Positions 6,370-50,210 of a stretch of DNA of 64,000 nucleotides are shown in pieces. The notes beneath the pieces were generated by a model, which saw only the letters and a list, made by a program, of their open reading frames with translations, did not search any database and was not told the origin of the DNA. The DNA comes from Bryum argenteum (Eukaryota; Streptophyta; Bryopsida; Bryales; Bryaceae). The stretch covers positions 24,751,510 to 24,815,509 of the forward strand of contig CM073321.1 in assembly GCA_037043015.1 (NCBI GenBank), given 5' to 3'. How positions within the stretch are numbered: position 1 is the stretch's first letter; each line of letters opens with the position of its first letter. Both the position numbers and the translations under genes were made by a program.

Positions 6370-8514
6370 ATATGGACAAGGTTGTGCGACACATATTCTA
6401 GACCTCCTTCTAGAAGATTGGGGGAAAGAGGCATGGGTTAAGCATTTGGTGGAGCAAGCCAAGAGAGTGTGCACATTTATTAAAGGGTCGCACGTCCCAC
6501 TTGCTCTATTCAGGAAGTACTCGCCGAAGTGCAGCTCAAGGTACCGCCTCAGACTCGATTTGCAACAAACTACTTGATGATAGAGCGGTTGTTAAAGCTA
6601 CAACAACCTCTGAACAACATGGTGATCAATGCGGAGTGGCATGTGTTTGTCCAAACATTGTTTAACAGGCAAAACAGTCACCAGTTACAGACAAAGGCAA
6701 GGAATGTGCGGAATAGCATCAGGAGCGATGAGTTATGGGAGAATTGTACGAAGTTTGTGAAAGTAGTTGAACCAGTACTTCTAGCTCTTCGGGAGTTTGA
6801 CAGGGAAGTACCAGCCATGCCTAGGGCGTATGTGATCATGTCGGACCTTACAAAACAAGTGTTCTCTTCGCGTGAACCTCCATTCGAACTATCCCCCGAC
6901 ATTGCTACAAAATACGAGGATGCATTTCACAAACGATGGGAAATGATGCTCACAGACCTCCACTATGCAACAGCTTTGTTGAACCCTTATTTGACAAATA
7001 TGGGAGCAATTCAAAACAATGGAGAAGCAAAAAGAGCTTTAAACCGGGTCATAAGGAAGCTTAGCGCCCCAATGGGAGTAGTCTATGATGAAGTGGTGCG
7101 GGATCTCATACAATATGAGGAGAGGACGGGTCCATTTAACACCAATTCAGAGGCCCCTGATCCAGCTCACTGTGACTTGTTACCACATCAATGGTGGCAT
7201 CAAGTCGGGGGGAATGCCTTGCCAAAAATTGCGAAGAGGATTTTGGCATTGACATGTTCAGCTTTATCATGTAAGAGGAATTGGAGCATGTACTTTTTCG
7301 TGCACAACAAAGTGAGGAATCGGTTGTCAACTTCTAAAGCAGAGGACCTTGTGTACATCTATGCGAACGCCAAACTCGAGCGCCAGAAACGTACCAAATC
7401 GCCGAGAACGTGGTACGAAAATTATTTAGTGGAAGAGGACTGTGACGAAGAAGACTATGTACCGGACAATGGATGGGATGATGGTGTATTCATGGATAAT
7501 CCAGAGGCGGATGACGACAATTATGTCAATGACGGTAGCGAACACGACGACCTAGAGAATTGGAACGACAACGAAGGAAACATGACTATTCATGTCAAGG
7601 ACCCGTTTGAGTTCGATGACGACCAGGATGTTCCACAACTGCCTCGCCAGTTTGCGGTATTCGCCAATGACACAGAAGGAGAAGGAGTGGCAAATTTACA
7701 ACTCCAAGAGAGTACCTGCCTAGCAAAACAAGACTTGGTAAACCGGATGGATGAAGAGAACATTGGTCCACTTAAAGGCAGCCCACACTCTAACAACAAC
7801 GATGAACTTGAGAGTGTGAAGTGCACGGTTACCACGGCAAGAGTTCAAATGGACCAAATTAAAGTGGAACCTGACGATGTATCCAATTCAGGTTGCATGG
7901 AAGTGGGGTCACCTAGAGTTTCAACCATTCGATCAAGGAATTCAACTCTTAACAGAGATGACTCCGATGTACCTCTACAATAATTGTTCCCAAGGGTTAC
8001 CCAACCTAATGGGGCCCATACAACTTGTATGGTATTGCCGAAGATGGAGGTCAAGATTGAACCAACAAGTCCAACATGCACCCGGGCATTGGCAGTAGCA
8101 CGAGACGTCGGGCCATCTACACAACCTCGCAATCGTATTACACAAGGCCAGAAGCGTTTGAGGAAGGCACACAACCGACGATGTCAGAAAGGAGCACGCG
8201 TACATGAAGAAGTCCATGCTGGGATTGCTTCATCCAATAATCCGAATACACGTACAATGCGCCATCTACCACTGGACGCAAACGGGATCACTAATGCTTC
8301 ACGGCCCTTGAAGCGCCTCGTTACAGTGAACAAGAAAACAACTACGGACACGGAATTGCGCAATTTGGCGAGTGAGGTTGAGTGTGAAGTACGCAATAAG
8401 ACAAAGGATGAAGACGAGGATGGCGACCAAAGCACTGATGACTCTCTAGGTGAAACCGATCCAAACGCAGTTGAAGTATCAAGCAACGATACGTATATAT
8501 TGAAGGATACCTAA
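6370..8514 (+). pseudogene. hAT-like transposase, catalytic C-terminal half
   Basis: The translation carries hAT-family signatures: a segment DLLLEDWGKEAWVKHLVEQA before 6500, then RFATNYLMIERLLK, and near 7190-7380 the C-terminal dimerisation region with WWHQVGG, ALTCSALSCKRNWS and RNRLSTSKAEDLVY. The last matches the LA...L.....SS..ER.WS...HNK.RNRL pattern of plant hAT transposases. hAT proteins cut and paste DNA in the nucleus and dimerise through this region. A very acidic, Asp-rich tail (about 7440-7620) follows. The upstream part (before 6528) is in another frame from the main open frame, so there is a one-base shift there, and a TAA at 7981 interrupts an otherwise continuous frame that runs on to 8514. 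It is therefore inactive as it stands. Confidence 0.75.
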
Positions 8515-10624: not shown

Positions 10625-11836
10625 ATATTTTTTGTTAGAGCTAAATATGTTGACAGCATTCGTACCTCATATGCCAGATGCTGCGCTTCTTCTTCTAATT
10701 CCTTGGCGTACTTCATGTTCTTTCTGCACATCTTGGGTCAGAGATGGTTGCACTTGATTTCGCGGAGGTGCATTATAGTCGCAGGAGCGGACGTCAGGTA
10801 TGGTTGCTCGTCGTTGTCGTCGTTGCATTTGTACGACAGCGTGTGCAAGTGTGATGGATTATCTGACCACACTATCTCGCACGTCCATATTCTGAGCCGG
10901 TCCTTGATGGTCTTATCACTGACTTTGATAAATCCGTCAAGTATACATTTAGCCGCTGCCCAAGTGTGTTGGCCGTTGATGATCCAAAATGGACCTGCTC
11001 TGACGCAGTCCTTCCAGCTCTTGGGCCTCGTCGATGTGTTTGGCATGACAGTCAGAATCTGTTTGTTGAATTGCAGTGTGACCATGTTCTTAAGGACTGC
11101 AGTAATACCTGCTTGCTCCAAAGGCTTGTAAATCCTCCTGGACTTTGGATCACATTTTTCCATGTCCCCGACCTCCAGTTGGAAGTACCGCCCCTGACCG
11201 AAGATGTACATGTACTCGGCGTTTTTCTTGAACATTAAGTTTGCCGTTACTTGTCCTTGGAGCTCCTCGTACAGTTGAAGCTCTTCTGCCTTGTCCGCAG
11301 CCTTCTTCTTCGTCTTCATCTTCACGGACAACTTATCCGGGACCATTTCCGGGTTGAACGGAAACGTATTTGGGTACTCGCTCCATCTGCCACCTTTCGG
11401 ATATGTCCCCATCGAGGTCTCCTTCACCGCGGTAATCGAAGCGGTTGCCTCGTCGATGACCGTCACGAGTTCTTCGGGGATTTCAGCTGCGAGTTCCTCG
11501 CTAGCTTCCCGCATTGGCTCTTTCGTTGCCTCGCTGGACTGCCCTCTCTCCGCTTCAATCGCCTTCTTCTTGGGATTCTTCTTTGACGCCTTTACCTTGT
11601 CACGGGCCCTTTTACGGGTGGAAGCGGCAGCCGTCGACTGCGTGCCCTGAGTTCCGACGTCCTCTCCACTGTCGCGCTCATTTGAAACAATGTCGGCCAC
11701 ACCGTCGTTTCTCTGAAACACGGTACGCAGTGGGGGCATTGTACCAGCTCCGAGTAAACCAGATTGAGCAGGAAGGCGGCTACGATTTCCTTCGGCAGGC
11801 GCACTGGATGGCGTCGTGGGCGGATCACGGGCAGAT

Positions 11837-13359
11837 TGTCGCGACCCTAATTACTCCAACTCTTCTTTTTCTTATTGAGCCTTACTTGGTAGCGGAATCA
11901 CGGCTCACTTAGTTGGTAGCAACCGGCCACGACTTTGCTAACACTTGCATGTGCCCCACACACACAATGTTAGCACCATTCTAAGTCAAGGTGTCCAACC
12001 CACATTGACTCCATAACTCATTATCCGGTACTCATTACCCGGACCTCCCACCAACACATGGGTATGCCAACCCGGAACTCCCACCAACACATGGGCATGC
12101 CACTTGGTGGCACGGGGCGGCCTTCCACAAATGTCCAAGCTCCCAAGGGTGCTACTAATCACCCCCGGAGCTAACCGCCCTTATCCATTTTCCAACTTCC
12201 CACTAGTCCCCCTTCCACTCTTGTTTCTCACCCCATTCGGGACTTTGCCGAAAATCCTCCCGGAATCCGGCACTAGTTTTCCCGGGGACTAGTTTGGAGC
12301 GGGACTCTTTCCAACCCAATGTTGCGGGATGCTCAAGAGCATCCCACAATGCCCAAGATGTAGAAGTGAGGCTTCCTTTCCATGCCTCACCTTCTTGAGC
12401 CATTCCCGGTCACTCCCGGGAACCGGCACTACTTATCATGGGGACTAACTTGGAGAGGGACACTTCCCAACCCCATGTTTAGAGAGGCTCCAAAGCACTC
12501 TCTACTTTCCACAAGGTGCGGAATGGAGGCCCCATCCCAAGCCTCACCCCTTGGAGCCACCCCGGCTCCTCAAGGCACCATGTGCAAGTGAGGAGGGAGA
12601 CCACCCCTCCTCATAGTACTCTCTGGAGTCTTCGGTAGGCCCCCCCCTCTTGTGTTGAGGGGCCTTCTGTGACACACTTTTGTTTTGGAAGACCACCCGT
12701 TTTTTTTGCCTTAGTCTCATAACGGGCCGTATCTTCTTCTCGGGCTAACTTGTAGCTCAGTTATCCAAATGGGACGTGCGAGCCCATTTTCCACATCTAC
12801 TCTTTGAGTAGATGTCGATAGACTCCTCACTTGTCCCAATCGGAGCTTCTATGTGGGAGCTATGCTCCTCTGAACATTCGGGAGTCCCGAGAGGCAGCAG
12901 TCCCGGAGTCCCGAAGTCCCGATGCTTTGGAGAGCCATATCTCCCAAAGCATTGCTTTGCTCCTCACAAGCTTTAGCATTTTGGAAAGCTCTTGTTCAGA
13001 GCTTTCCAAAGACATGCAACATGCCGCCATCCAAGAAGGGCGACATTTTGAGTCCCGAAAGGTAACACTCCTAAGTCCCGGAGTGTCCCGGAACGTGCTC
13101 CAACTTTGGAGAGCCATATCTCATGACTCACAACTCCAAATCGCGCGTTCTTTGGACCTATGGGTGCGTGCTTGAACAAGGTTTCCAACCATGTAAAGCA
13201 CACCACCAAGTTCGTCCCGAACACGACGCCATTGCGTGCTGTTTGCTCGGGACTCCCCTTGATTACTTCACCTTGTCTCTTGCCGAGCCCGGAACGTCAC
13301 TCCTGGGGTCCTCTTGGCTTACCACGGTGTTTGGGCATTCTTTGGAAAGGGATGTGACA
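11837..13359 (-). mobile_element. Solo LTR (gypsy-type family of the 62-64 kb element)
   Basis: A 1.52-kb segment begins TGTCACATCC and ends GTCGCGACA on the minus strand, and is bordered on both sides by CAGAT (11832-11836 and 13360-13364), a 5-bp target duplication. It is similar throughout to the LTR that starts at 62956 and to the LTR end at 61940-62190. By eye the similarity is high but clearly below identity, so the family is not brand new. No internal region remains, as expected after LTR-LTR recombination. It is a fossil and splits the ParB-like gene. Confidence 0.88.
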
Positions 13360-33246: not shown

Positions 33247-33727
33247 TCTTGACGGACGTTGCTACCGTGTGAGCGTTGAGCGGTGAGCGATAAGATTTTT
33301 GATTTTTTAGGGCTGACTTTGTATCTTTAGTAAGAAAATTCTAAAAATAGCATAATATGTTTTGTTGGGGAATTATTCTAGAATATTCTCGGGAATATTA
33401 GAATATTCTAGACTTATTACCGTGGATTTAGTGACCCAAATCCGTGAAAATAAGGTTTAAATTCTTTGAAATTGGTTAGACTTGAGCTCAAAACTTGACT
33501 GTAAATGACAATTTCTTAATGTTAATGAAGGGCCGTCGAGGTCGAGCCGCAGATGAAAGGACTTCAAACTCTTCATTTGAACTTCAGAGCATGGAGTCAA
33601 GCAGTCTAACACGGTCCTCGGCAATGCCGAAGTCTGTAATTTGTATTAGAAAATTTCATCACATTCAATGCCAACTCTCATTTCAAATGTGAGTCGTGGC
33701 CATACAACTTCTATAACTATCCATCAG
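33247..33727. other. Spacer
   Basis: It includes a small inverted motif, TTCTAGAATATTCTCGGGAA followed by TATTAGAATATTCTAGA (33376-33412), and a 65-codon frame without a recognised domain. Confidence 0.4.
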
Positions 33728-34190
33728 CTAGTCATAGTTCGAGTCAGTCCTTGTATCACTGCTGCTGCGATCATCAACTGCTGAAGTGAATTCTAAAAAA
33801 TCCTCCCAAATCGTCTCAGAGTGGCGTATTTCATACACATTGCAAACCAAGCACCCCAATTCTTGCCCGTCATGTCCTTCAGGTAGTCGTCTCCCTTGTT
33901 CCGTGCTATACACGCTGAACACCACGCCTTGTGACAATAATCACAGGGGATCACAAACTCGTCTCCTCCACACCAATTGCATTGCTCATCATCATCTTGG
34001 GACGTTCTTCGTAAATACAACGTCGCCCAAGAAAAGTTTGCACGAAATGCGAATTCCAACACCGAGACGCGGATGCTCCATCAAACAAGCACGGATTTTC
34101 TCTCTCCACATGCGGTGCGGGAATACAAATACAAAGGATCGACATCGGCCGCATGCCCCGCCATTTTATCGACTTCACCGCAAGACTAAC
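33728..34190 (-). pseudogene. ADD-type (ATRX/DNMT3-like) zinc-finger gene fragment
   Basis: On the minus strand three neighbouring frames carry consecutive parts of an ADD domain. A first Cys pair and helix lie at 34190-34090 (ACGRC, then REKIRACLMEHPRLGVG and ISCKLF). The PHD-like core lies at about 34020-33870 (EQCNWCGGDEFVIPCDYCHK, then AWCSACIARNKGDDYLK). A final Cys pair (CLVC) with an acidic C-terminus ends at 33728. Spacing of the Cys ligands and the CDYCHKAWCSACI block are very close to ATRX and DNMT3 ADD domains, which read the unmodified histone H3 tail in chromatin. At least two frame changes divide it, so it is probably not functional. It could be one domain of a longer protein whose other exons lie to the right, where I recognise nothing. 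Confidence 0.65.
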
Positions 34191-34214
34191 AAACTTGAAT
34201 GAGAGATGGCCCAA

Positions 34215-35395
34215 AAGTCCGAGCTTTGAGATCTTGGCTATCCTCCCGAACGTTCTTCTATAACACGAGCAAACCGGATTGCCATCATTTTACCTTGAAG
34301 GCCCATTCAATCGCACCTATCCATCGACCATCATCAACGGCACCGCCCGACAAAGACCGGCAACTGAATGGCAGCAGCAGCAGCTTTTTTGCTGGACTGT
34401 AAGGCATCGACATTTCTGCGAATTACAAACCGACACTTCGGCACCGACACGAATTCCCATGACAATCGACCCGATTTTTTCTTACATTTTCACGAGAAAT
34501 CACCGACATTGCATCCTCTTACATTTTCACAAGAAATCTAATCACTTGAGCATCATTTCCTCACATCTGTACCAGCACATCACAATGAGCACCGACATGG
34601 CACAACTACATGGGACGTTAAAACCGACACTCCGACACTCTTTATGACACAACCCATCCGCTCTCATGCATGGCCATGTTATTATAGAACATGAGCACCG
34701 ACAAATTGTACCGAGACCATGCTGTTCACTTCACTAACGTCACGGACACATGACAGGTTCGGCCGGATTGAACGGCGATATTGATTTTTTTTTTTAAAAT
34801 GATGCTAGGACCGGCCTCCATACGTAAAAGAAGAAAATTGTTTCAGCTCAAGGACCCTCCAATTCAGCATTTTTGAGATGGTAGAAGAACTACGAGGAGT
34901 AAGGAGGACGGTGGAGGCGTTCATGACGGACCTTGTCATGTCATAAAGTTGATACTGTTCGGGCCGTAGATTATACATTTTTCAATCACTCTATAGGTCC
35001 ACTGGTTTGACAAGGGCGGAGTACTGAACAAAATTACAGTTTGGATCCAAGACATGTTTCTCCAACCAAAAAGAGGACTCATAAATCCCGAAACGACTTG
35101 CTAGCGAAGACGGATACTTTGAATTGTGAGCATGATGATTTGAATGCGCATTACCCATAATAATTTAATTATCTGGACTGACAAAATGCCATTAAGTACT
35201 TACAATTCAAAATATTAGATCCGTCGATAAAATAAGTAGGTGTAAGATGTAGAGTTAAGGCGGCAGTCATTGTCAGAGATTTAGTTAGATAATAGATGCG
35301 ATTAAAAGTTAACTTATTTTGGATTGTCAGACACGGTCATAGCGGGATGCTAGGGAATACGCGGTGGATAATTAGGGTTTCTTAGTCGCATGGGG
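34215..35395. other. Spacer, no recognised gene
   Basis: The stretch has short open frames on both strands. A phrase TCTTACATTTTCACGAGAAATCA at about 34482 recurs at about 34518. No feature is supported. Confidence 0.35.
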
Positions 35396-35396
35396 A

Positions 35397-35406
35397 ACTT
35401 ATATAT
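35397..35406 (+). promoter_or_regulatory. Possible TATA box
   Basis: ACTTATATATTGG lies about 100 bases before the ATG at 35503, which begins a clean coding-like exon. Position and sequence fit a plant TATA box. No other promoter element is evident. Confidence 0.35.
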
Positions 35407-35502
35407 TGGAGTTCAAACTCATAGTTCAACCTCTTCATTTGCAGTGGGATCACTTGGACTCGTTAGCTTGTACGTGTGATAAGTTCTCTCATTGCAAGCA
35501 GT

Positions 35503-36146
35503 ATGGAGGAATCCGCTAGCGGTAGTGAGAGAGGAAAAGAGATAGGCCGGAAAAAGAAGAAGCGGAGGGGTGGTACAAAGTTTACTAATTCTAAAGCGCA
35601 GAGGCGTAGTGCTTTGCGGAAGCGCGATGGGAGAAGCTGTAGTGGCGATGATCGGGAGCCAGACGGGTATGACATCTTGATTGACGATGATGTGCTACCG
35701 CCATTTAGGCGGACTATCAAAATGCGATCACTCAACCTGGACAGTGTCCCGGAGAGTGTCGGGACAGACGAAGCTAAAGATGAGGAGGAGGAAGGGCGTA
35801 GAAGGCAGTTCAGGATATCTAGCGAGACTGTATGCGTGGATGGGGATGACGATGGAGGTGTAGACTCTACAATTGAGGTAATTATGTAATCTATTTTACA
35901 AATATGTTGATATTTCTAAGTATCAAAATATTACCGAATTCGTTTATGGATTAACATCAACATGTGTTGTCTTGTGGTCGCAGAGAAACGAGAAGAGGAA
36001 GACGATCAACTGGAGGAGAGAAGCGCAATGTTTGAGGAGAAAAGAGGCACCGATATGCCCGAGAGAGAGCGAAGCCTCCACGAGATGAGGAGATACAGAA
36101 TGATGTAGCGGATGGATTTGAGACAAGTGCTGAAGAATTAGATGAG
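35503..36146 (+). CDS. Hypothetical highly charged protein, 5' exons
   Basis: Exon 1 (35503-35877) begins MEESASGSERGKEIGRKKKK and continues as a basic then acidic, apparently disordered chain with DGYDILIDDD in the middle. It ends at a GT donor. A second possible exon (about 35984-36146) follows a TCGCAG acceptor and ends at GAG/GTACAT, but its open reading changes frame, so it may be decayed. The basic KKKKRRGG run could act as a nuclear localisation signal. No family is recognised. It could be the 5' end of a gene continuing at 37.4 kb. Confidence 0.4.
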
Positions 36147-36714
36147 GTACATGAAAAACCTTACTTCCTGGTTTATTGGGAGGATCTAGGATTGATTAAG
36201 TATACAATCAACTAGAGTCCATTCTTCGGTTCGAAGTACTTAGAACTATTCACATTATAGATTTCCATGATATATATAGAGGCATGACTGTTTCATGGTA
36301 TAATATTATCGAGTGTGACATGATTCGCATGTGTATGTTAAAACAGTCTATGAAGAGTGAGCATGTAAATGACATGTCATAATTTCAGAGTGGCATGAAA
36401 GAATATGGGCATATTTTAGCATTCACCTCTAGAGATTAGATATGTTTTCAGGAAACGGAAATGTAGATTACGATTTAGTAGTATTTCTGAAAGAAAGATG
36501 TAAACAAGTATTAAATATATGTTTGTCGAAATGACGTACATACAAATCATATTCAAAACTATTCCAGTGACTCAGTACGGAGAAAATGAATACAATACAT
36601 AGTGTTGATAAAATTATCCCGGAAAAAAGCTGATATCCGAGCTCACAAGCACCTGACCTGCTACACGAAGTCCGGTCCTAGCTTCCCGACATGGCACAAT
36701 GTCCGCTACCCCCC
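36147..36714. other. AT-rich spacer or intron
   Basis: Non-coding and AT-rich. It may be an intron between the 35.5-kb exons and those at 37.4 kb. Confidence 0.35.
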
Positions 36715-37200
36715 TCGTAAAACTGCATGATCGGTCCTGCCGGGTATCGGCGAGGCGGGCCCGGCAAGGCCGGGTAGACGAAGGCGGGTACCAGCCGAGT
36801 GGATACAAGCGACCCCGCCCGCAACGCCGAAGACGAGCAGGCTGGGCCCGCAAGCCGGCACCGGCGCGCCGTGGCCCGCCAAGCGCGGGTACAGCGCCAT
36901 CGTTTCGGGCAAGGTCGGTACCGGGTGGTCTGGCCCGAAGCAAGGTACCATCAATGAGGGTGGTTCGGCGAGGCTGGGTACTGAGCTCGGCCCGGCATGA
37001 CCGAGTACCGGAGTCGAATGCAAGCCGCAGACAATGAGCGGGGCCCGGCCGGGTACGACCCCACGCCTCGCCGAACGCCGAGCTGGCCCGTCACCGGCGC
37101 TGGCCGAAAGCCGACCTGCCTCCTCCGCCTCCGCCGAACGCCGACCTGCCTCCTGCGCCGAACGCCGGTTTTGGCTCCCTCTTTCGGCGTCGCCGCTTCA
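36715..37200. repeat. GC-rich island with CGGGTAC/GGCCCGGC repeats
   Basis: This 480-bp island is strongly GC-rich inside AT-rich DNA. It is built from repeated CCGGGTACC- and GGCCCGGC-type words, followed by a short minisatellite of GCCGAACGCCGACCTGCCTC (37100-37170). The overlapping long frames on both strands come from this composition and are not credible genes. Confidence 0.65.
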
Positions 37201-37409
37201 ACGCCCCAGGGGTCGCTGCCTCAATCCAAAGTCTCCGTCTTTAATTTCAAGATTCGATTAGAAGAAAAGTTCGTGCTATTTTTGAATAGGCCAAAGGAGG
37301 AACCGTCGATGCTGGAAAGGCAGTTAATTTTAGTAGAAGCAAGAGAACGTTCTGGCAAGATGGGAGGAGTACATTTGATACTGTCAAGTTGTGGGAGGGT
37401 GTTTTTTGA

Positions 37410-39976
37410 TGAGTTTGCACACCATTGCTGTCAAGATATTGCAGGAAGAAGAAATCATGGCGGATCTTGTAGAGAAAGAGGTGGCAGTGGAAGGAGGCAG
37501 TGAGCACGTCGAAGAAGCTTCAGAAAATGTGAGTTCTCTGTCCTCAGAATCAAGTATTTTCGACGAATTTTACAAGGAATTTTACAAGTCGCATGCTCCT
37601 GGTGAAGCAATGAAAACGAGGGCGGAGTTGGAGGTGTGGTACTCCAAGAAATTCCTGGTATGTACTGAACAAAGCTTGTTGCTACATCAGATTGAGTAAA
37701 CCCTAACTTTTGCATTCTGCACCAGATCGATTGTGCACTAAACCTTGTTCAACCGGTATGACATAGAATCCGGTAGGAGAGAAAGTAAACGTCATGAACA
37801 CACTCGAATATGTGAATTCGGGTAGTGCAAGTTGCTGACTCCTCTTCCCTCGGTGCTGTACCTCTTTGTTGTTGCCGATGAGGGCAAAGCGTCGGTGCTG
37901 TCCATCTTTCCTGTTGCCGATGAGGGTAATGTCTCGGTGCTGTCCGTCTGTTGTTCCCAATGAAGGCTGCTTTGTGAGTAGGCTCGAAGCAGAGCAGGTT
38001 CAGGGCTTGGATTTGCATGGATGTCAGGACGGAGGCTGCCGTTTTTCCCTTTTATGTGCCCGAATTTGGCTTTTTTTTCCCTCGCTGAACTGCATTTTCT
38101 TCTCCTTGTTTGCTGGACTCGTGATGTATTTCGGGGACTGCAGGTGCTGCCTTCTCTTCCCTCGCTGTGGACCATCCAATGAATGCCGATGAAGGCTGCT
38201 GAGAGCTTCAAGGCGGGCCTGAGGCTGTTTGCAAACTGGTATTCGCCTACTCAAATGGAAGTTTGATGGCTGGCCATTTCGGTGGCGTGGTTTTGGTGTG
38301 GCACTGGATGTGGGAAGAGCCGGGAAGCACCCAGACAGTCATGGGCGAAAGTCTGCAGGGAGGTGCCCAAATTGGGCTTTTTCTTTCATCGGTGATCTGC
38401 ATTTTCTTCTTTTTGCTCGATGGATCTCGTGATGTATTTTGGGGATGCAGGTGCTGCCTTCTCTTCCCTCGGTGTGGCCACCCGACATGAATGCCGATGA
38501 AGGCCGATGAAGGCTGCTTAGAGCTTCATGGCGGGCCTGAGGCTGTTTGCAAACTGGTGATCCCTTGCTCAAATTTATGCTTGATGGCTGGCCATATCGG
38601 TGGCGTGGTTTTGGTGTGGCACTGGTTGTGGGAAGAGCCGGGAAGCACCCAGACATTTGTGGACGAAAGTCTGGAGGGAGGTGCCCGAATTTGTCATGTT
38701 TTTTCTGCCTTATCTACTTTTTGTTCTTTTTGCTCGCTGGATCCCGTGATGTATTTCGGGGATGCAGGTGCTGCCTTCTCTTCCCTCACTGTGGCCACCC
38801 AACATGAATGCCGATGTAGGCCGATGAAGGCTGCTGAGAGCTTCATGGCAGGCTTGAGGCAATTTGCAAACTGGTATTCCCGTGCTCAAATTGAAGCTTG
38901 ATGGCTGGCCATTTCGGTGGCGTAGTTTTGGTGTGGCACTGGTTGTGGGAAGAGCCGGGAAGCATCCAGACATTCGTGGACGAAAGTCTGGAGGGAGGTG
39001 CCCGAATTTGTCATGTTTTTTCTGCCTTATCTACTTTTTGTTCTTTTTGCTCGCTGGATCTTGTGATGTATTTCGGGGATGCAGGTGCTGCCTTCTCTTC
39101 CCTCGCTGTGGCCACCCAACATGAATGCCGATGAAGGTCGATGAAGGCTGCTTATAGCTTCATGGCGGGCCTGAGGCTGTTTGCAAATGGGTATTCCCTT
39201 GCTCAAATTCATGCTTGATGGCTGGCCATTTCGGTGGCGTGGTTTTGGTGTGGTACTGGTTGTGGGAAGAGCCGTGAAGCACTCAGACATTCGTGGACGA
39301 AAGTCTGAAGGGAGGTGCCCGAATTTGTCAATTTTTTCTGCCTTATTTGCATTTTGGCTCCTCATTGCTCGCTGTTGCACATCCTTGTTGTGCCTATGAA
39401 GGCACGTGTGTTCTTCATGGCGGGCCTGAGGTTTTTCGTTACTGCTATTCTCCAGCATGCATCCGAGAAGCTTGATGGCTGGACACAATGGTTGCTGGTC
39501 GACGCTTCCTTGGTTTATTTGCTTATGCTGGTTTATTTGTGAATGAATTTCTTAAAGTGTGAATGAATTTGCTTAATATTAGTTTTATAACAATGCCTGA
39601 GTTTTTTATTCGGAGTGTTTGATAATTGACTTAGCATTGGTTTGGTGTGATTTTGCAGGTTCCAAAAATGCGAAAAAAAATTGAAAGAGAAGAGGAATCA
39701 GATGCAGATAATGACCTTTCCGCATTGAGAGACAATGTGTTAGCTTACGTGGAGTCTCGTCGATTAAACATATCATTGACTTCGGTTCCGGAAACCCCAC
39801 CCCCTGCCTCACCTGTCCGTCACACCTCGCGTGATGTCATTGATCGGGTTGCACGAGCTGTTAACATGCAAATCAAAAAGAATGAGGCTAAAGCTAGACG
39901 TATCGAAGAGAAAGCATTAGCTAGAGTCAAACCCAGACGTTCTCCGCAACTTGCTAGAAAGTTGCAGTCATCTTGA
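37410..39976 (+). CDS. Hypothetical two-exon protein around a satellite-filled intron
   Basis: A first exon (about 37410-37655) reads VKILQEEEIMADLVEKEVAV, then FDEFYKEFYKSHAPGEAMKT and ELEVWYSKKFL before GTATGT. A second exon (39659-39976) follows GATTTTGCAG and reads VPKMRKKIEREEESDADNDL, ending in a basic helix with KKNEAKARRIEEKALARVKP and a stop. The chain is charged and mostly helical. The 2-kb intron is almost wholly tandem repeat. The gene ends only 140 bases before the ParB-methyltransferase frame on the same strand, so the two may be co-transcribed or parts of one locus. No family is recognised. Confidence 0.4.
37848..37972. repeat. Minisatellite, about 42 bp x 3
   Basis: Three copies of TCGGTGCTGTCC followed by GTTGCCGATGAGGG, spaced about 42 bp apart, inside the putative intron. 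Confidence 0.75.
37990..39480. repeat. Satellite, 317-319 bp x about 4.5
   Basis: Equivalent words such as CTGTTTGCAAACTGGT start at 38224, 38543, 38860 and 39177, giving units of 319, 317 and 317 bp. A partial, more diverged unit lies before and another after. Each unit contains GTGGGAAGAGCCGGGAAGCA, TGATGTATTTCGGGGATGCA and GCTGCCTTCTCTTCCCTC. Neighbouring units are very alike, which points to recent expansion or conversion. Confidence 0.92.
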
Positions 39977-40115
39977 TTGTATCGTCGGATGATATGTTGA
40001 GTTTATCATACACTTGATTATAAAGCCGATGTTTTTTATTAATTTTATCGCATTGGTTATTTGACACATTCTTATTCAGTCTGTGGTGTGTTATATTTGG
40101 TTTCTGGATTGCCAG

Positions 40116-43100
40116 ATGACCTTAGCTCAAGTTCGTACTGATGAAGATGACGAATCTCGCCGACAACTTCTTGCTTCTCCACCACTTCGTTCGACTGATG
40201 GAGACGTACAATTACATGATAGTGTCGCAAATGTTGAAAACATTTGCACCGGAGTCCCGGAAGAAAGTCCTTCTGAAAGTGAGCGTCATCCTGAAGCCGT
40301 GCACGATCATGATCGACTCGACGCGCTTTCAGAAGATGAAGATACTCCTTTGCCTGGGAGTGACAACATTGGAATCGTTCATATGCCAATGCATCTGCAA
40401 AACAAGGACCCCGACTGGAGTGCAAACAAGATGCGAATGCTTCACAAGAGTGATTCGATTGCAATCATCAACAGGTTACGCTACAAACTTTTTAAGAAAT
40501 CTCGTAAGTTCATTCCACTCTGCCGTCTCGTTTGTTATCCGAAGGTTCGCCCGATTTCAGAACAAGACGTCAGGAAACTAGAGAATGAATTCAACAAAGG
40601 ATACCGGGAAGGCGATCGGGTGATGTACGTGTCACCCTTTGATAAAAAAGGCCGAGAAAAATTGGTTGATGCCGAAGATGCTGTCTGGACGAATCCTCTA
40701 TGGAAATCAGCTAATGAAGAGTTCGAGAAGTCGCTGCAGTCAGATCCGGATCTACAACACCTCAGAAACAAGTATTTCTACGTTTACGAAGGCAACCACC
40801 GTGTGACGGCGTGGATGCGTCACATAGAGAGGTACCATAAGATGGAACCTTCGTGGTACATCTCCGTGGATTGTATCATTCTTGATGCACGAGGAGAGAG
40901 CAATCTCTTGCTCGACGCTATGAACGATATAAATTGGTGAGTATTTATTCATTTTTTTTTATTCGCTCAATTTATATTTTGATTAAGTTCAATGTTTCTC
41001 ATGTCTGATCTCGCACTGCAGGTCTACTGAACATGACCATGTCGGTTTGTGTGCAAAATTGCAGCGAATGAGGCAGTTTGGAAAATTGAAACTGGAGGAT
41101 TTCAAGGATCTGATATCCCCAGAGGATTACAAAATATGCAAGAACGCTAAGGTAAAAAAAGATACTTGGTATCCTGTAACAGTGGACGTCTTCGTAAAAT
41201 TCTTATACGCGGTAAGTTGAATGGAACGTGTTTCAAATGTGAATGTTTGTATTGGGTTCTTTACATCTTATTAATTCTTTTTTTTTGTTATACAGAGGAG
41301 ATTAGCGAAGGCATCTGATGACGCAGAAACGAATTACTACGCCACCGTACCGAAAGAGAAACAAACAAGACCTGGAGTATGGAGTGCCATAGATAATGCG
41401 ATCAAAGCAGAGATTAAGGCCATACGTGGCAAAAACTTCGACAAGATGGTCGCTGTGGCCAACAACAAACTTGGGAAAATATTTGCGAAGGAGGTAAACA
41501 CCCCTTTCATGTTTTATATGACTCGTAATCATGTTTTATAACCTGATTCCTACTTATGATCTTCATGTGCAGATTTATTCTCATTACAGCAAGAACTTGA
41601 AACCCGATATGACAATCGATCGCTTCCAAATGGTAGCCACTACCAATGTTCATTGCGATTTCAAGGGTAAGTGGCTCCAATGGTGGAACTCATCGGACGA
41701 AGTTCGACGTTCTTTTCGCTTCCCAGAAGAACGACCAATGAAAGATGAAACTTTGATGGCATTCCTACATCGCGCTTCTCTATGGGCACAGGTATCTTAA
41801 TGTTTTGTTACGTGTTTTCAAAGTTAGACTTCATATGCTATTTTGATATTTAACATGTTCTCTTTTTTCACAGCTCGAGCATTCACTTCAAAGTGAATTG
41901 CAAAACCTAATTGACAACAAAAACCTCAACATTGAGTGGTCTAGTGTTGTCCTAAAGCCATCTGAGTATGTGGAGAAGTGGATGTTGCTCTTATGGGACA
42001 AGGCATTCAACAACTATCTTGGTCCTAATGCCAGCCCAAAGTTCAGCAAAGGCTCAGATCTTCAAAAGATTACCGGGGGCAAAGTTACAATTAAGCGGCT
42101 TTTATTCCGGTAAGTTTCTAGTTTTTTATTCAATATTAATAAAATCGGTACAACTTGTTCAATTTTCATAATGTAATTTGTTTTCTTTTTTGAAGGTACT
42201 TAAAACAAGAGCTCGTTGTCAAGGGAGCATTAGCTTTGTTCTCTATTCCAATGGAGTTCGAGGACGTCTCAGTCACAAATGATCCCCGCAGTTTTTTCTC
42301 CTCAGCCCAACAAGAGCGGTTTCCAAACTCTCAATTGTCGACCGGTGGATGGTTCCTTGAGTGCGATGACAACTACGTGCACAAGGAAGAGAAGCATCTT
42401 CTTCGGAATCTCGCTTTAAACCCAGCTGACTCTGCACCGATGGAGATTGACGACGATGACGATGACGACCTATCTATTCTACCAGTCGCGTCTGATCCAA
42501 TCTCTTCTCCTTCTTCACTTGTTGCAGTGCCCAAGTCTCGTGCAAACAGGAAGCGACGCAACGCTGTTTCGGAGCCTGGTGTTGCACTTGACGAGGATTT
42601 CGAAGATATTGCTCGTCGTCAAGAAGACATTGCAGGGCCAGAGGATGCTGATCTGACTCAGGCGTCAGTGGAAGCGACAAACAAGGCAATTTGACGCGGT
42701 GCAAGACTGACTCAACTTTCTGCGGGTGGACTTACGAATGTTGAGTCTCCTCCACAATCCTTCACCGTTGACCACAACTCCCAACAGTCCCCACGTCGCC
42801 TCAGCCAGCCGGTATTTGCCAAACGCCCTCTTCCAAAACCCACTCACATTGGTAGCAGCTCGTCGTCTAAAATATCGGTGACTCTACCTATGTATCTCGA
42901 GAAGGGGAACATTGGAGATTTGGTCCATCACTCATCGAAGACAGGAAACTGGGATTCGCAAATCCTTGATATCGTTGAGCACATCAAGAAGGTATTATTT
43001 CATACATTTCTCATTTATAATCTCTCTAATTACGTTTTGTACTTTAGAATCTATTAGCGACTATCTAATTTTTCATTGTCTCCCAGATTGGCAAAGACCG

Positions 43101-44388
43101 TAAGTACCCATGTTCGGCGATGGAGTATCAGCCCAAGCATCCAGGGATTGATCTCATTTTTGCAGATGCTCCCGAAAACTTGGCTGCCTGTACCGGGTGT
43201 GTCTCCAACAGAAGTTCCATCCTGGAACAGGCGAGACAAAACCTACTTTGAGAGCCTCTTCGTGTTTGCCGCGTATCATTTGACAGACGTTGGAGCCATT
43301 CTTCTGATGCATCCAAAATGCCCTAAAATCGAGCGTACTCTTGATTCTGAGTCGCATAAATATAGTTTTCGTCTGGTTCGAGACTGCTGGGGGTATAATC
43401 CCCTCCCTATAGCCTCTACCGTGCCTAAACCGAAAGAGGTACGGACCAAATTCTAGTTTCCAATTTCATATTTCATGATTATTGTCTTCTATGCTTCTAT
43501 GTTAACGTATGTATACTTCTGTTTTGCAGACTCACTGCTTCCATATCAAAGTGTATGTTCGGAAAGATTTTTTCCGAAGTTCCGAACTCGAGAAGTGGCA
43601 CACGCATACGCGGGTGTGTCAATCGTACCTGATGAGGAAGACCACCTCTATAACTTTGCAGACAAAGGGACACTGCGTTATTGTCCGGATGGTACGCCAT
43701 GGCGAGGCTCACGAGAGAAGGACCCCTCCTTCATTCAATGTTTCGTCGATTGTCTCACAGACGACGGGGGTATAGTCTTCGATTGGAGCGCAAGTACAGG
43801 TAATATTTCCGTAAACTCTACATTAGAATTTGTTTATACAATTTGCATTTTTAACGTGGGCATCTGATTTTATAGGTGCATCTGTGATAGCTTGCGCGCG
43901 CTCCAACCGACACCTCATTGCTATGGAGCCAGACGAAGAAATCTTTTATGGTGTTCTAGCAGATTACAAGAATGGTCCTCCCAGTGATGAAGAAAGTGGA
44001 GAATCAATCTCTCCCGCTGATTATGACTCTGACGAACCGGTCGTGAAGAAGCCACGAAAGTTCATTGGTGCGTAATACCATCTTGTATATTACTTCTAGA
44101 TTTTAAAATACATATTTACAAATCGGTAATATTGACTTTCTTTGTACTTTTAGGATCGCAGGTCTGATAGAGCAATTGACTCGCAACGCTCATCTCTACA
44201 AGAGCCCTCCAATAAAATTCACCCTACCATCGTACGCTGAGCGTCTTGCTCAAGAGTTTGTTCAAGCTCCATCTCCCATTTTGACTGACACTCCACGTCG
44301 ACGCTATAGCAATAGTGTGCTTAAGTTTATAGACTTTGAGGCTGATCAATGTGATCAGCACTTTAATGGTACTACACCGTCTGCCTAG
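40116..44388 (+). pseudogene. ParB-like domain fused to beta-class DNA methyltransferase-like domain
   Basis: Ten exons fit GT-AG borders and phase: 40116-40936, 41022-41211, 41296-41493, 41573-41791, 41874-42109, 42196-42991, 43087-43438, 43530-43799, 43876-44067 and 44162-44388. That is about 1,165 codons. Residues 140-250 resemble the ParB/sulfiredoxin fold: VRPISEQDVRKLENEF, then VMYVSP, then YVYEGNHRVTAWMRHI with the G-x-HR motif. A long helical middle with an Asp run (EIDDDDDDD) follows. The C-terminal part has DLIFADAPEN in the place of the D-P-P-Y catalytic motif, then LTDVGAILLMHP, PWRGSREK, and VFDWSASTG plus RHLIAMEPDEEIF, matching the cofactor-binding motif and following Glu strand of beta-class N6-adenine/N4-cytosine methyltransferases. 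ParB-methyltransferase fusions are known from bacteria and phages. Both signature motifs are non-canonical, and about three breaks are present, so activity is doubtful. The acidic C-terminal tail looks regulatory or disordered. Confidence 0.62.
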
Positions 44389-44833
44389 TTTGTGATTTGC
44401 TTTCTGATAGGTACTGGACATGGTAGCGCCATACATTCGTAGTTCACCATGATCTATTATTTATATTAGTCTCTATATGTGTTTTTCAATATATATGGTT
44501 TTATATTTTTATTTATCGTGATTATTGTTTATAGCTTAACCTACACTATGTGCTTCAAGTATTACTCTAAGTATCTCAATACAATGTAATCTGAGCCATG
44601 ATTGCCTTTAATGGTGATGTCAGCCCTAATTTGATGTAAATTCTTTAACTCCAATTTCAATGCATCGGTGTATCTAAATGTTTAAGTTTAAAACTCAATG
44701 CAGACTAAAAGTTCTAGAAGTTTTTTTTCTTTTTTCCATTGGAGTGATTGAATCTTGCCAATGTTAGTAGGGGCTACAGTCCGTTATTTGTATAGCTCAG
44801 GATAGCGGCTTTAAGACGCACTGCGGTAATGAG
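44389..44833. other. AT-rich spacer
   Basis: The region between the stop of the ParB-methyltransferase gene and the next coding frame. It is AT-rich and probably holds the 3' end of the former, but no defined polyadenylation signal can be assigned. Confidence 0.4.
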
Positions 44834-47800
44834 GTGAGTGTCTACGACCACGCCAAGAAAAGATCGGCCTTAGACGAGGCAATTAATGACGGTGTGAGGA
44901 ATCCGGGCAAGCGCAGGTATCGCTATGCGTACAGAACCCGAGCCTTTCGAACTGTAGACAGGGAGAGAAAGTTCGTACCTGATGAGGCACAGTCCAGAGT
45001 GTATACGCAAAGATGTTGCAACCGTTCCTATACAAGGAAGTTTGGAGTAGGGATGGTGCGTGCATTACGCACCGATATGCACCTGCATTCGTGCCACATG
45101 AAATCCATTAAGAACCTCAAGGTTCATACAGCCATTCACGATGCGTACGGCGGGAATGCTAAGGTTGTAACGCTGGAGGGCGAGGAAATATGTGGTAAAG
45201 CATGGCAAATAATCCACAAGGTCAGCCTCCGCACCTTCCAGAGGTACGCTGTGCGTGCGAGGAGGCAAGAGAGAGGGGCTCCACAAGGAAATGCTTCAAA
45301 GTGCAAGCGTCGGAGCGGGACTATTCAGGCGGTGGAGACTCTACGGTCATTACTAGAGGCAAAAGCAGACATCATGCCGCATATGCAATGCACTTTGCGC
45401 TCCGGCGAGAGGGTTGGCAAGAAGGTTCTTCCAGCTGGAACTCGCTGAAATCAACTACTTCCTATCGTGAATCAGGTGAGATTACATCCATTGTCCAACT
45501 GCATTTAAGTATCAGGGGTTGTCTGAGCACATGTTTTCGTCCCGTTTTTTGGAATAAAGTTTGAAGGCAAACTTTTTTCCACAGCGCCCTCGCGACCTAC
45601 GAGCAGAAAATTAATGTTTTCTGGACGTCCCGTCTAAAATAATACCACACATTGATTATGCATTTATGTTCAGATAGCTGCCCATTAAATTGTTCAAAGC
45701 GGTCTAGAATCACTTGGCAGGATTAGTTTCTCGTCTACCACCCTGAATCGTTTCATTGGGATGGGTTTCTGGGCGGTAGTCGAGAAACATCACGTTAGAA
45801 CGGTTTTCCGGCGGTTGCCGTCTATATGCATCCCGCGGGAAAGGTCTCCAGTCAACCTACGGGAATCATTTGACAGAGAATAGGCCTTCATTTGCTCTAG
45901 GTCGGCAACTAGGGTGTGGAAGTCCTGTTATTGGTTCCATGTCTTTGGAGATGACGTTGTTGTAGTCTTCATCGTACGTCTGTCCTCATTACCAGGTGAA
46001 TGAGGAACTTGGGCTTCACGCACTCTCTCAGCCTTGTTTCAGCAAGATGCGTAGCAAACCTTTCCAAGAATTCTCAATCAAGAGCAGAGGGGACGACTTC
46101 TCAAGGTGCAGCAAATGTATCAAGCTCAAGGGTATACGTGCAACATTTGTCCCCCGATCAGAGGAATACGACCAAGTTCATCGAAAGTTCCAACGACACC
46201 TCTTCATGCGAGAGGCATGTCATCAGGATAGGCCTTCAAAAGTGTTGTCTATTGTTTACGACAAGATGGATCACTCGTAGACAGCATGTCCGGCGTTTGC
46301 AAGGAAGACAAAGTCGGTGGACAGGTTCATGAAGCTACCTGTCGCAGTGACAGGAATGTTTGCACAGGGACACGCAGACGAAAAGTACGCACACTACACT
46401 CTGCCGGTATTCGACGCGGACAGCAACTTCTCAGTGGGCTCAATTGCCAAGCTACTGCGAGATCTTGAGGAAGCTCCCGTCATGAGTTCGCGTGTCTTGT
46501 TCAAAGGGGCCGGGAGCATGCCATTGTATTCAGCACTATTGCACGGCAATGAAGTTTGCAGAGCATCCCTGAAGGAGCCACCTGCGAGTCAAAGACCTGC
46601 CATGCCCCTCCCACCCGTGCTTCATATCCAGATGGACAACAGTTGGAAAGATAACAAGAATCGATATGTATTTTGCTTCTGGTCTCTGCTAGTTGCGAAG
46701 CGTATCGTGAAAGAAGTGGTGGTTTCATTTATGATGGTGGGCCACACACATGACGACATTGATGCATCCTTTGGGCGTTGGAGTATGCGACTCCGGGAGA
46801 AGACTATCCAACACTGCCCTTGTTGATGCAATCTTATATGGACATAGAAGAAGATGCCATGATTCCCCACCTGGTGGAGGAGGTGCCCAACTTCAAACAC
46901 TTCATAAAACCTTATATAGCAATCGGAGCAAAAAAGCTCGTCGGGCATGTCAAGGGACGACAGTTCAAGTTCTTCGTGGATGACAATGGATGGCCGATCA
47001 TGAAATACAAACTGAATTGCACGGTGAAAAACTGGTTGCCAGAGGCCGGGATCAAGCTCTGGAAGTAAGACGAAGACGGCCGCCCAATGCTGCCGGAAGG
47101 GCAACCTCGTGCAGTCAGGCCGCACGTAATGAAGGGCGAAGCTGACATACTTCGCGGACTTGATGGATACATCAAGCACTGGGAGAGCTTGTTGGAAGAG
47201 GATGCTGGTGCTCATTACCGTGCACAAGTAGTACGATGTATCGAGTACTGGACAAGGGTGAGGAATAGCGTGATGAGAAGGGAGTACTTAACAGAGTCTA
47301 GGGTGTTGAATTGTGGGTTTTGGCCCCATACAAGACAACCGGGAGACATGATGACAAATATCATGTACGACGGAGGAACTAGAGAGGAGATGGACGAGGA
47401 TGAACCGCACATTGGAAGTATAGAGGGGAGGCCACCGCCTTCATATAGCGTAGCCGTCGATGCGCAAAAGGGGTTCCTCCTCTTTGTAAGACCTGCATCT
47501 AAGGCAAGGGAGCATGTATGGCTGGGAATGGCTGAGGACAACCCGCAGTTTGATCCTACACGAGAACATTTTTGGGAGGTCCCTCTGAAGTGGTACATAC
47601 CATGTGCAACCACGGGCGACGTCGAACAAAGGTATCTAGGGTGGGACACGCATAAACGGTTCATGTGGAAGCCGGACCCAACATGCACCGTGGCAGACTA
47701 CACATCAACAGACAGCATCCTAGCGTCATGGAAGCCAAGGTCGACAAAGAACATACAAATTGCATCGTGTGTGCAAGTGAAATTTGCTGTAGACAATTTA

Positions 47801-47836
47801 CGGCGGATTGCAATCCAACAGAGTCGAGGTATGTGA
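44834..47836 (+). pseudogene. DDE-like transposon protein (DUF7869-type core)
   Basis: Consecutive open pieces (44834-45448, 45996-46280, 46317-46826, 46810-47068 and 47087-47836) form one plus-strand gene with some breaks and one probable intron (about 45470-45990). The first part has EICGKAWQIIHKVSLRTFQR. Later come FSRCSKCIKLKG and SIVYDKMDHS, then LHIQMDNSWKDNKNRYVFCF, then VVSFMMVGHTHDDIDASFGR. The three Asp-bearing strands (YDKMDH, QMDN and GHTHDDID) are spaced like an RNase-H-fold DDE/D catalytic core. The QMDN...GHTHDDID pair is the hallmark I know from a large group of uncharacterised eukaryotic proteins (DUF7869-like) found in transposon-rich genomes. Function as a transposase is inferred. 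It follows the ParB-methyltransferase gene on the same strand. Confidence 0.55.
45617..45826. repeat. Palindrome group D (three copies)
   Basis: Three variants of the TTCTGGGCGG...CAGAA palindrome lie near 45617 (TTTCTGGACGTCCCGTCTAAAA), 45765 (TTTCTGGGCGGTAGTCGAGA) and 45803. They lie inside the probable intron of the DDE-like gene, just as array A lies in an intron of the ParB-like gene. Confidence 0.65.
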
Positions 47837-48689: not shown

Positions 48690-50210
48690 ACAGGTGATAC
48701 AAATACAACCAGAGCATGTATCCACGTTGGATACCACACTCACCCGGTAGGACAAGGTACCTGTAGGAAGTCCTTCGAGCTCCGCGACCAATAGTTAAAG
48801 GGTGCGCTTGAAAGATCACCAAAGGCCTCACCCTTTGCAATTGCACTGTCTGCAAGCTCTGAGTTCCTTGGAGATTACCTATTGAAGAAGGATGGCGAGT
48901 CTCAGTCATTTTTGACAAAATCTGAAATGCGGGATGTTAGAGTCAAGTTTGAGAGCTTCACGAGTCCAACAATTCGACACAATGTGTCTCACTTTAGAAG
49001 GATGGGAAGGAGGGCATAATCGATGGAGTGTGCAAATTGAGAGGCACCTCTCGGTGGCCCTATGTGCAAGAGAACATATTTCCTGGCCAAGGTAGTAAGA
49101 CGGACAAGCTGTTTGTCTTGAAAATGTCGGAGATTGGACCGGGATCTGGCGTTGATCTCGTTTAGAGAATGCAACCTAGAGGGGATCTGGAATACGCATG
49201 GGTGATGTTTGATCACGTCAAGTGCATCAAACGGTACACAACTTTTGCCTGCCACGTTTACGACTCAGCGTATCGCAAGGTGATGACGATTGCAATCTGC
49301 GACATGATGTCCGAAACCCAAGATGCTCAATCATACCTGTGGAGAGGAATCAATGCCGTCATGGGTGAGCACGGGGTTCACAACATCAATTTTGCGGGAT
49401 TCATGGCTGACAGGGTGCAGACTAACTGGAATGCTGTCCGAGAGATCTACGGTTCAGGTGACAAATCCGTTCCAATGCCAAATAAGGAACACTCATGTCT
49501 ACTACATTGGACTACTTGCGTGCAGAGAGCAAGAAACTCTTACAGTAAGCCTGAACTTCGAGATGAGCACAAGCGAATTTGCACCCAGTACAAGGACGTG
49601 TGCACAGCTGATGATGCGGAATCTCGCTGCATGGCGATTCGTTCATGGTGGTCTACGAGTGGAGCAGCAAGTGACTTTGACATCCATGCGCTGGAGAACT
49701 GGTTGGCATGGTGGCACTTTCGATATTGGCAGTGGGGCGGATACATGAACATGGTACAATTTATCGCGGTTCATCATTTAATTGTGAATATTCAGTCATT
49801 TCATACATCACTTAGAAATATGGTCCCGGGTTTGCTTTTCAGTTATCCCAAATTGACGACTTTGATTTGATGATGCAGGATCTCACGGAGGATCAAAAGA
49901 CGGAGATGCCGATGTGCAATTTGTCAGAGACTGTGCATGCCTCATGGAGCAAGCAATCTAGCAAAGCCTGTGACAACATTTTCGAGGCTACTATTGAAGA
50001 CTATTGCCGTGCCTTTGTTCAGTGCACCAGGTACAATGCCTACGACAAAGGTCGAGGATCAGGTAGTGGTCCCACCAAAGAGGAGTTGCGCTTCCGCGCG
50101 GCAACTTGCTCTCCTACTACAATTGGTAATTTGAAGTCAGTATATCGGGCAATGGACCCCATCCCTGGAGCGGGGAAATTTCTCAATAGAGCGGCATCGT
50201 TCGCAAGATA
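48690..50210 (+). pseudogene. MULE-like transposase gene
   Basis: An upstream piece (about 48690-48794) reads TRACIHVGYHTHPVGQGTCR. The main exon (49169-49753) contains VMFDHVKCIKRYTTFACHVY, INFAGFMADRVQTNWNAVRE, and EHSCLLHWTTC. It ends in GYMNM before a GT, and a second exon (about 49879-50210) after GATGATGCAG reads DLTEDQKTEMPMCN to NRAASFAR and a stop. The D-x-x-x-x-x-x-x-Y, then M-A-D-x-x-x-x-N-W, then C-x-x-HW order resembles the catalytic domain of Mutator-like transposases (T-Y-x-N...DG...C..H). These cut and paste DNA in the nucleus. Similar genes are, as far as I know, typical of algal and early land-plant genomes. The part between 48795 and 49168 changes frame. Confidence 0.5.

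Follow-up and report, generated by a model that had tools for sequence, protein, structure and literature searches.

A pseudogenised copy of a ParB-like/methyltransferase-like accessory gene in a multicopy Mutator-like transposon

Accessory proteins that join a ParB-like domain to a DNA methyltransferase have already been reported in algal transposons. According to the accessible parts of Dinatale et al. 2025 (PMC12477816), the element Sola1-1_Ec32 of Ectocarpus encodes such a protein of 1104 amino acids (aa) on the strand opposite the transposase; for green and red algae those parts refer to Iyer et al. 2011 and Petroll et al. 2025, and they name no target for the algal proteins. In Arabidopsis, VANC proteins bind fast-diverging noncoding tandem repeats and induce the loss of silent marks, as stated in the accessible portion of PMC10398659. 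Here we analyse a ten-exon gene at positions 40116-44388 of a 64,000-nucleotide window (the whole stretch of DNA studied, C1:24751510-24815509) within a genome searched over 258.8 Mb in 25 contigs. The window holds a pseudogenised copy of a transposon accessory gene, and the element carrying it is a multicopy DNA transposon of the Mutator-like type. We assign a probability of about 0.8 to the reading as a whole, in which the protein of this accessory gene acts on its own element.

The exon-1 protein gave 144 matches in the genome, at 67-100% identity save for three short fragments (141 of 1231 candidates were scored), and 69 of the 141 main exon-1 places lie on contig C1. Twenty copies were fetched for comparison. 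The copies share sequence between a left end, GGACGTTGCTACCGTG... (33254 in the window), and a right end, ...GGTGGTTTCCCC, and unrelated flanks precede the shared left end. The termini form imperfect inverted repeats, followed inward by TGAGCGG-type repeats, and right ends elsewhere, when reverse-complemented, read GGGGAAACCACCGGTGTGAGCGTTGAGCGG (e.g. L022); terminal inverted repeats are common in Mutator-like elements (MULEs), though not universal. Homology in the window ends at 44824, while other copies continue for 500-678 bp to a GGTTTCCC end in 18 of 19, the fetched stretch of the nineteenth, L028, ending before that point. Target duplications of 10-11 bp flank three of the five left/right pairs (L010/L032, L011/L037 and L017/L041), and mismatched left/right pairings (n = 199) share at most 6 bp. 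These three pairs fall within the span of 8-11 bp that the accessible text of PMC6446971 gives for MULE target duplications.

A transposase is associated with the gene. In L043, a longer copy, the leftmost 6.3 kb contain minus-strand frames of 738 and 486 aa that show FMAD, C-x2-H (CYFH) and, near the C-terminus, CSC...CKH. MULE transposases are of the DDE type, with C/D-x2-H and often a SWIM zinc finger, and we take the pattern in L043 to be the Mutator-like one. The 738-aa frame has 61 scored genome matches (the best 61 of 1765 candidates), of which 16 lie less than 10 kb upstream of a listed exon 1 on the opposite strand and 27 less than 35 kb upstream. The three other arrangements of transposase and exon 1 give 0 within 15 kb and 0, 1 and 1 within 35 kb; random placing expects 0.23 pairs within 10 kb, with the sizes of C2, C6 and C10 guessed. 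At the other 34 of 61 places there is no exon 1 on the expected side within 35 kb among the matches listed. Of the three copies with unbroken accessory frames, L024 and L025 are accompanied by a transposase where the arrangement predicts it; the L025 transposase contains one stop. The window copy matches L043 at L043 positions 63-345, 4093-4331 and 4605-5732 alone, so its transposase has been lost. Assembled from several copies, and not from one long copy end to end, the element runs from left to right as terminal inverted repeat, minus-strand Mutator-like transposase, small plus-strand frames, a region of 24-bp near-palindromes that mostly stand in tandem arrays, ten-exon gene and the other inverted repeat, and the identity of the gene as an accessory gene of this transposon is close to certain. 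The element features in the window are:

33254-44824, plus strand: transposon copy that has lost its transposase and whose right end is cut off, a deletion derivative with the left end common to other copies
33254-33290, plus strand: left terminal inverted repeat plus subterminal TGAGCGG-type repeat, GGACGTTGCTACCGTGTGAGCGTTGAGCGG in the window
34875-35113, minus strand: 5' remnant of the transposase gene, 84% identical to L043:4093-4331, within the 738-aa frame
35467-35889, plus strand: small open frame (KKKRRGGTKFTNSKAQRRSALRK...), inside the stretch 80% identical to L043:4605-5732

The cut right end is followed by coding frames that belong to another element (44825-47833, plus strand; DUF7869 at 46281-46823, expect value E 7.9e-35), and 49166-49867 (plus strand) holds a piece of a further transposase of this kind, with 53% identity to that of L043. 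In 18 of 19 fetched copies a hairpin-like CCGAG-N10-CTCGG, similar to a tRNA T arm, stands 484-640 bp before the right end; L019, the lone copy lacking it, was scanned from an estimated position. A tRNA-like right end at CCACGT was considered and rejected, since copies continue to GGTTTCCC. ARAGORN found no tRNA in seven loci or in the window, and an Rfam search of L009 returned 4 matches, all sub-threshold.

The gene opens with an ATG at 40116 and its stop codon ends at 44388, the ten exons being separated by nine GT-AG introns. Its structure was followed in a splice alignment of 20 sequences, which comprised the window and 19 fetched copies; the twentieth, L023, was excluded because its right part failed to align. 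In this alignment GT is kept at 179 of 180 donor sites (the single exception is AT, in a tally that would accept GC) and AG at 170 of 180 acceptor sites, and identity to L024 is 57% in introns versus 74% in exons. For intron 9 the reading frame rules out the first AG as acceptor and places the end at 44161. The spliced eukaryotic gene of ten exons with GT-AG borders that was proposed in the preliminary description is thus borne out across copies, and the blocks it pointed to (EGNHR, DLIFADAPEN, FDWSASTG and RHLIAMEPDEEIF) are all present; its matching phases hold at the exon borders and fail within exons 7 and 8, where length changes break the frame. The gene features are:

40116-40936, plus strand: exon 1, acidic N-terminus, then ParB-like domain at residues ~84-275
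41022-41211, plus strand: exon 2, from the alignment of copies
41296-41493, plus strand: exon 3, from the alignment of copies
41573-41791, plus strand: exon 4, from the alignment of copies
41874-42109, plus strand: exon 5, from the alignment of copies
42196-42991, plus strand: exon 6, end of the middle region plus low-complexity linker; in-frame TGA at 42692-42694 in the window copy
43087-43438, plus strand: exon 7, start of the methyltransferase-like domain, DAPE at the motif IV position; frame broken in the window copy
43530-43799, plus strand: exon 8, covering the motif X region and the first part of motif I; reading frame disrupted in the window copy
43876-44067, plus strand: exon 9, remainder of the motif I region, RHLIAMEPDEE
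44162-44388, plus strand: exon 10, C-terminal tail and stop
40937-41021, 41212-41295, 41494-41572, 41792-41873, 42110-42195, 42992-43086, 43439-43529, 43800-43875 and 44068-44161, plus strand: introns 1-9, 76-95 bp each
39659-39976, plus strand: exon-like open frame upstream of the gene (MRKKIEREEESDADNDL...), preceded by an acceptor-like TTTTGCAG

Nucleotide similarity of the window to more distant copies begins at 39619-39728. A naive splice of the window copy contains nine internal stops, because exons 7 and 8 have lost frame through length changes and exon 6 holds the TGA. Three of the 20 aligned sequences, L022, L024 and L025, are free of stops after splicing and encode 1164-1166 aa; L022 has TTG where the other copies have the start codon ATG, and the aligned stretches of L024 and L025 stop short of the stop codon. 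The remaining copies carry from 1 to 33 internal stops.

These intact copies have been kept under purifying selection in both domains. Between L022 and L024 the ratio of nonsynonymous to synonymous substitution rates (dN/dS) is 0.027 in the ParB-like domain, 0.09 in the middle region and 0.091 in the methyltransferase-like domain. It rises to 0.24 for the linker and tail and to 0.55 for the acidic N-terminus; all these values are rough because dS is high (0.5-2.9). At the lower dS of 0.18 between L024 and L025, dN/dS is 0.17 overall, 0.039 in the methyltransferase-like domain and 0.22 in the ParB-like domain. Being under purifying selection, the methyltransferase-like domain therefore has some function, catalytic or not.

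The C-terminal domain shares homology with DNA methyltransferases of the beta class, as the preliminary description had supposed. The fold assignment is firm because several comparisons agree. A profile of the window family plus L048, a relative in the same genome, matched DpnA (E 4.8e-6) and CcrM (5.7e-5, whole domain aligned) in the PDB; that search also returned an acylphosphatase at chance level and, at E 0.6, a modification methylase. In hhalign, four phage methyltransferases aligned across 64 columns (motifs X and I) with a probability of 95.3%, with reversed, middle-region and ParB-like controls at 0.1-0.3%. PHROGs named DNA methyltransferases for all three intact members (best E 2.8e-4), and the methyltransferase exon of L048 passes the cut-off of Pfam PF01555 (N6_N4_Mtase) at 27.6 versus 26.7 bits. 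The PF01555 check proposed in the preliminary description is divided, since L048 exceeds the cut-off and L022 alone stays below it at 14.8 bits; the match of PF01555 by itself has E 0.027, and its genome search gave two places, one of them L048. With tblastn, the region matched 25 phage records, and the 15 listed (E 0.008-0.9) comprise 12 DNA methylases or methyltransferases, 2 hypothetical proteins and 1 record that carries no annotation. The full protein gave two matches in a PDB profile search, both at chance level. NCBIfam yielded no match; a search of viral and bacterial collections for relatives gave pattern matches, zero confirmed. Weak Pfam matches to DUF4214, TAZ1_RBM, TECR_N, ImpE, PGA2 and DUF1539 were judged to be chance.

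The beta-class motif IV consensus is [DNS]PP[YFW] and motif I has FxGxG. Here motif IV reads DAPE or DVPE and motif I DWSASTGAS or DWSPSTGAS, neither of which follows its consensus; the deviation noted in the preliminary description is real, and methyltransferase activity is doubtful because of it. L048 (C4:20497900-20502400) shares 38% identity with exon 1 in its ParB-like part (E 2e-40); its motif IV is DTPF and its motif I has STGAS. Kept between the window family and L048 are the D and third-position P of motif IV, R-G-x-x-E-K at the motif X position and an acidic residue after motif I. The ParB-like part of L048 had 1571 first-look candidates in the genome, of which the best 131 were scored, and the wider family around it looks large and diverse.

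We call the N-terminal domain ParB-like, not ParB, as its membership is weak by sequence. Its EGNHRVTAW context is of the G-x-H-R type, and PHROG 1033, 'ParB-like partition protein', is matched at E 0.0078 by window exon 1 and at 0.03-0.06 by the intact members. The ParB calls published for the analogous Ectocarpus protein, in the accessible parts of PMC12477816, count toward this label. With tblastn, the region found no match in phages and plasmids. A second frame in the window, at 10741-11850 (minus strand), has the ParB-like motif WIINGQHTWAAAK and 111 scored genome matches at 27-100% identity, many of which sit in long open frames; its ParB-like label is a motif reading to which PHROGs and Pfam lend no support.

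Upstream of the gene lies a tandem array, and arrays of other units occupy a like place in other copies (304 bp x 8.7 in L022, 340/170 bp in L025). A 24-bp near-palindrome within these otherwise unlike repeats looks like the site of a dimeric DNA-binding protein:

38112-39346: tandem array upstream of the gene, period 317 bp, 3.9 copies, from Tandem Repeats Finder (TRF)
38332-38355: 24-bp near-palindromic site 1, from the pattern scan
38650-38673: 24-bp near-palindromic site 2, from the pattern scan
38967-38990: 24-bp near-palindromic site 3, CAGACATTCGTGGACGAAAGTCTG, 10/12 pairs
39284-39307: 24-bp near-palindromic site 4, 10/12 pairs, 832 bp before the ATG

The site takes the form CAGACWTTCGTSSACGAAWGTCTG or CAGCCTTGCGTCGACGCAAGGCTG, the second form having been picked after inspection of the L025 repeat. 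At up to five mismatches, 87 sites were found upstream of exon 1, distributed over all 21 copies (the window and the 20 fetched), with 1-12 in each and at least two in 18 copies. Downstream there are 2, both in L026 and past its right end, and ten shuffles and the reversed patterns of the site gave 0 matches. Pair 4/21 is compensated, being A-T in 69 and C-G in 18 of the 87 sites; among the non-palindromic pairs, 6/19 is complementary in 18 of 87 and 12/13 in 14, and 5/20 is G-G in 17. An unbiased palindrome scan, requiring at least 11 of the 12 pairs, gave eight upstream places, against 0.15 expected from shuffles; seven of them are the 24-bp site, in L023, L025 and L028 only. The same scan also gave another palindrome within the coding part of four copies. 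Genome-wide, a degenerate site pattern was matched 302 times forward and 376 times in reverse (perfect palindromes being counted on both strands), versus 0 + 0 for the reversed control. All 64 sites listed are on C1, and 13 of them precede a listed exon 1 by at most 5 kb, with 0 downstream (0.45 expected); when diverged relatives are added, 26 of 64 lie within 5.5 kb upstream, again with 0 downstream (0.86 expected). The remaining 38 have no gene nearby among the matches listed. Nine pairs of upstream stretches were compared by BLAST. Four of them (window and L025, L022 and L025, L019 and L025, L020 and L022) gave no match, and the other five gave 1 to 35 matches, some centred on the site and some elsewhere.

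From the near-palindromes, the ParB-like N-terminal domain and the analogy to VANC, we infer a role in self-recognition or un-silencing. The N-terminal half of the protein would bind sites within the element that encodes it, and the methyltransferase-like domain, with its altered active site, may mark element DNA or prevent silencing, as VANC does for VANDAL. The accessory protein probably acts on the DNA of its own element. That the 24-bp sites are what it binds is a more tentative proposal. They could well be bound instead by the transposase or a host factor, a prospect falling somewhat short of even; such proteins also use palindromic or repeated sites, yet every element site in the window and the 20 copies is upstream of the accessory gene, in a scan that covered the left end in the window, the left ends of most other copies being outside the scanned stretches. 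Returning to the accessory protein as the binder, one may tentatively picture a self-recognition module resembling a bacterial partition locus, with a ParB-like/methyltransferase protein and an iteron-like array; protein and site would co-evolve by subfamily, loading a complex on the element's own copies and shielding them from silencing.

What the methyltransferase-like domain does is a separate matter. An active N4-cytosine or N6-adenine methyltransferase that modifies the element encoding it, a role proposed for the Sola1 protein of Ectocarpus, would agree with the CcrM-like order of the whole domain, with the residues of motifs IV and X and the post-motif-I acidic residue kept with L048, with purifying selection on the domain and with the DTPF of L048, which is nearer to DPPF. 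Yet DAPE/DVPE has no aromatic residue and D-W-S-A/P-S-T-G-A-S replaces D-P-F-x-G-x-G-T, and we consider activity unlikely. The chances are evenly poised that the domain is without activity, with the protein serving as a DNA-binding, anti-silencing or transposition cofactor. Active-site changes together with selection on the domain point this way, as do MULE accessory precedents such as VANC (PMC10398659, accessible portion); the conserved fold and acidic residue on the S-adenosylmethionine side point the other way. The single transferred host gene of the preliminary description is not borne out. Horizontal gain of a host gene that was later amplified or retroposed would fit the few-copy state of the close relative L048 (two near-complete copies at 98-100% identity, one in pieces), but it is very improbable: the termini, target duplications and transposase association show residence in a transposon, and introns in all 20 aligned copies disfavour retroposition.

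Several results weigh against the transposon accessory gene, with its ParB-like protein acting on its own element, as we read it. Two of the five pairs with both ends, L009/L034 and L012/L035, have no target duplication. Pfam returns for the L043 transposase only SWIM at E 0.53, a weak match, and no other family up to E 10, Pfam MULE included. The palindrome is imperfect, with at least 11 of 12 pairs in just 3 of 21 copies. For the N-terminal domain, PF02195, by which the preliminary description meant the ParB-like context to be judged, has 0 matches in the genome (one candidate scored), and the identical search was positive in 10 of 14 control genomes; of that context the EGNHR motif and the weak PHROG match stand, and the Pfam assignment fails. 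An hhalign comparison with seven phage ParB-type sequences reached 1.7% (controls 0.1-0.5%), in the expected register. The ParB-like region has no match among PDB profiles, and the ParB-like frame of L048 has no ParB match in PHROGs or Pfam. Single-sequence structure predictions of exon 1, whole and trimmed, had a mean predicted local distance difference test score (pLDDT) of 38.8 and 44.7, too poor for use. The methyltransferase region aligned to three phage ParB proteins at just 36.7%; one of these, L049, has no methyltransferase motif.

Elsewhere in the window, a hAT-type transposase frame lies at 6484-7980 (plus strand; Dimer_Tnp_hAT, E 9.4e-5). Genome-wide there are 90 light-harvesting-protein matches and 57 GRAS matches, some GRAS genes yielding several pieces, which marks the host as photosynthetic and land-plant-like, probably a moss. 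Contig C1 (44.1 Mb) holds none of the former and 1 of the latter, yet about half of the exon-1 places counted above; it is perhaps a gene-poor, transposon-rich sex chromosome. C5 and C2 have tandem clusters of short (~234 aa) chlorophyll-binding-like frames, for which an expansion of early light-induced proteins (ELIPs) is a guess.

Among the open-literature matches listed, there is no report of a Mutator-like, land-plant-like ParB-methyltransferase gene with a parS-like array; the contents of Iyer et al. 2011 and Petroll et al. 2025 lie outside that scope. Within the same genome, the L048 family shares the ParB-like domain and the methyltransferase exon, and differs in its DTPF motif IV and few copies, whereas the window family has DAPE/DVPE and is high-copy. 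Phage ParB-methyltransferase fusions, retrieved by a ParB-like query, likewise begin with a ParB-like part, followed by DPPY and DPFxGSG in two of the three fetched (L050 and L051), the third, L049, being annotated as a methylase yet having neither motif. Those proteins have ~400 aa and canonical motifs, in contrast to the ~1165 aa, long middle region and spliced gene of the window family. Closest in architecture is the gene of Sola1-1_Ec32, which also encodes ~1100 aa with ParB-like and N4/N6 methyltransferase domains opposite the transposase of a large DNA transposon (PMC12477816, accessible parts). By the description there, with which the window family is compared, it belongs to a brown-alga Sola1 transposon and its methyltransferase is predicted to be active. 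The window family differs in its Mutator-like element, 10-11 bp duplications, land-plant-like genome, deviant motifs IV and I and palindromic sites. It offers many copies, intact frames among them, a selection signal that can be measured and a candidate site for binding, which makes the proposed self-recognition directly testable. The vanC gene of VANDAL21/Hiun is alike in gene context, being an extra gene in a Mutator-like element, and its noncoding tandem-repeat targets diverge fast, as do the arrays here (PMC10398659 and PMC6446971, accessible portions). The gene of the window family, for its part, encodes ParB-like and methyltransferase-like domains and, if the proposed role is true, would link a prokaryotic DNA-marking toolkit to plant transposon counter-silencing, where VANC otherwise serves.

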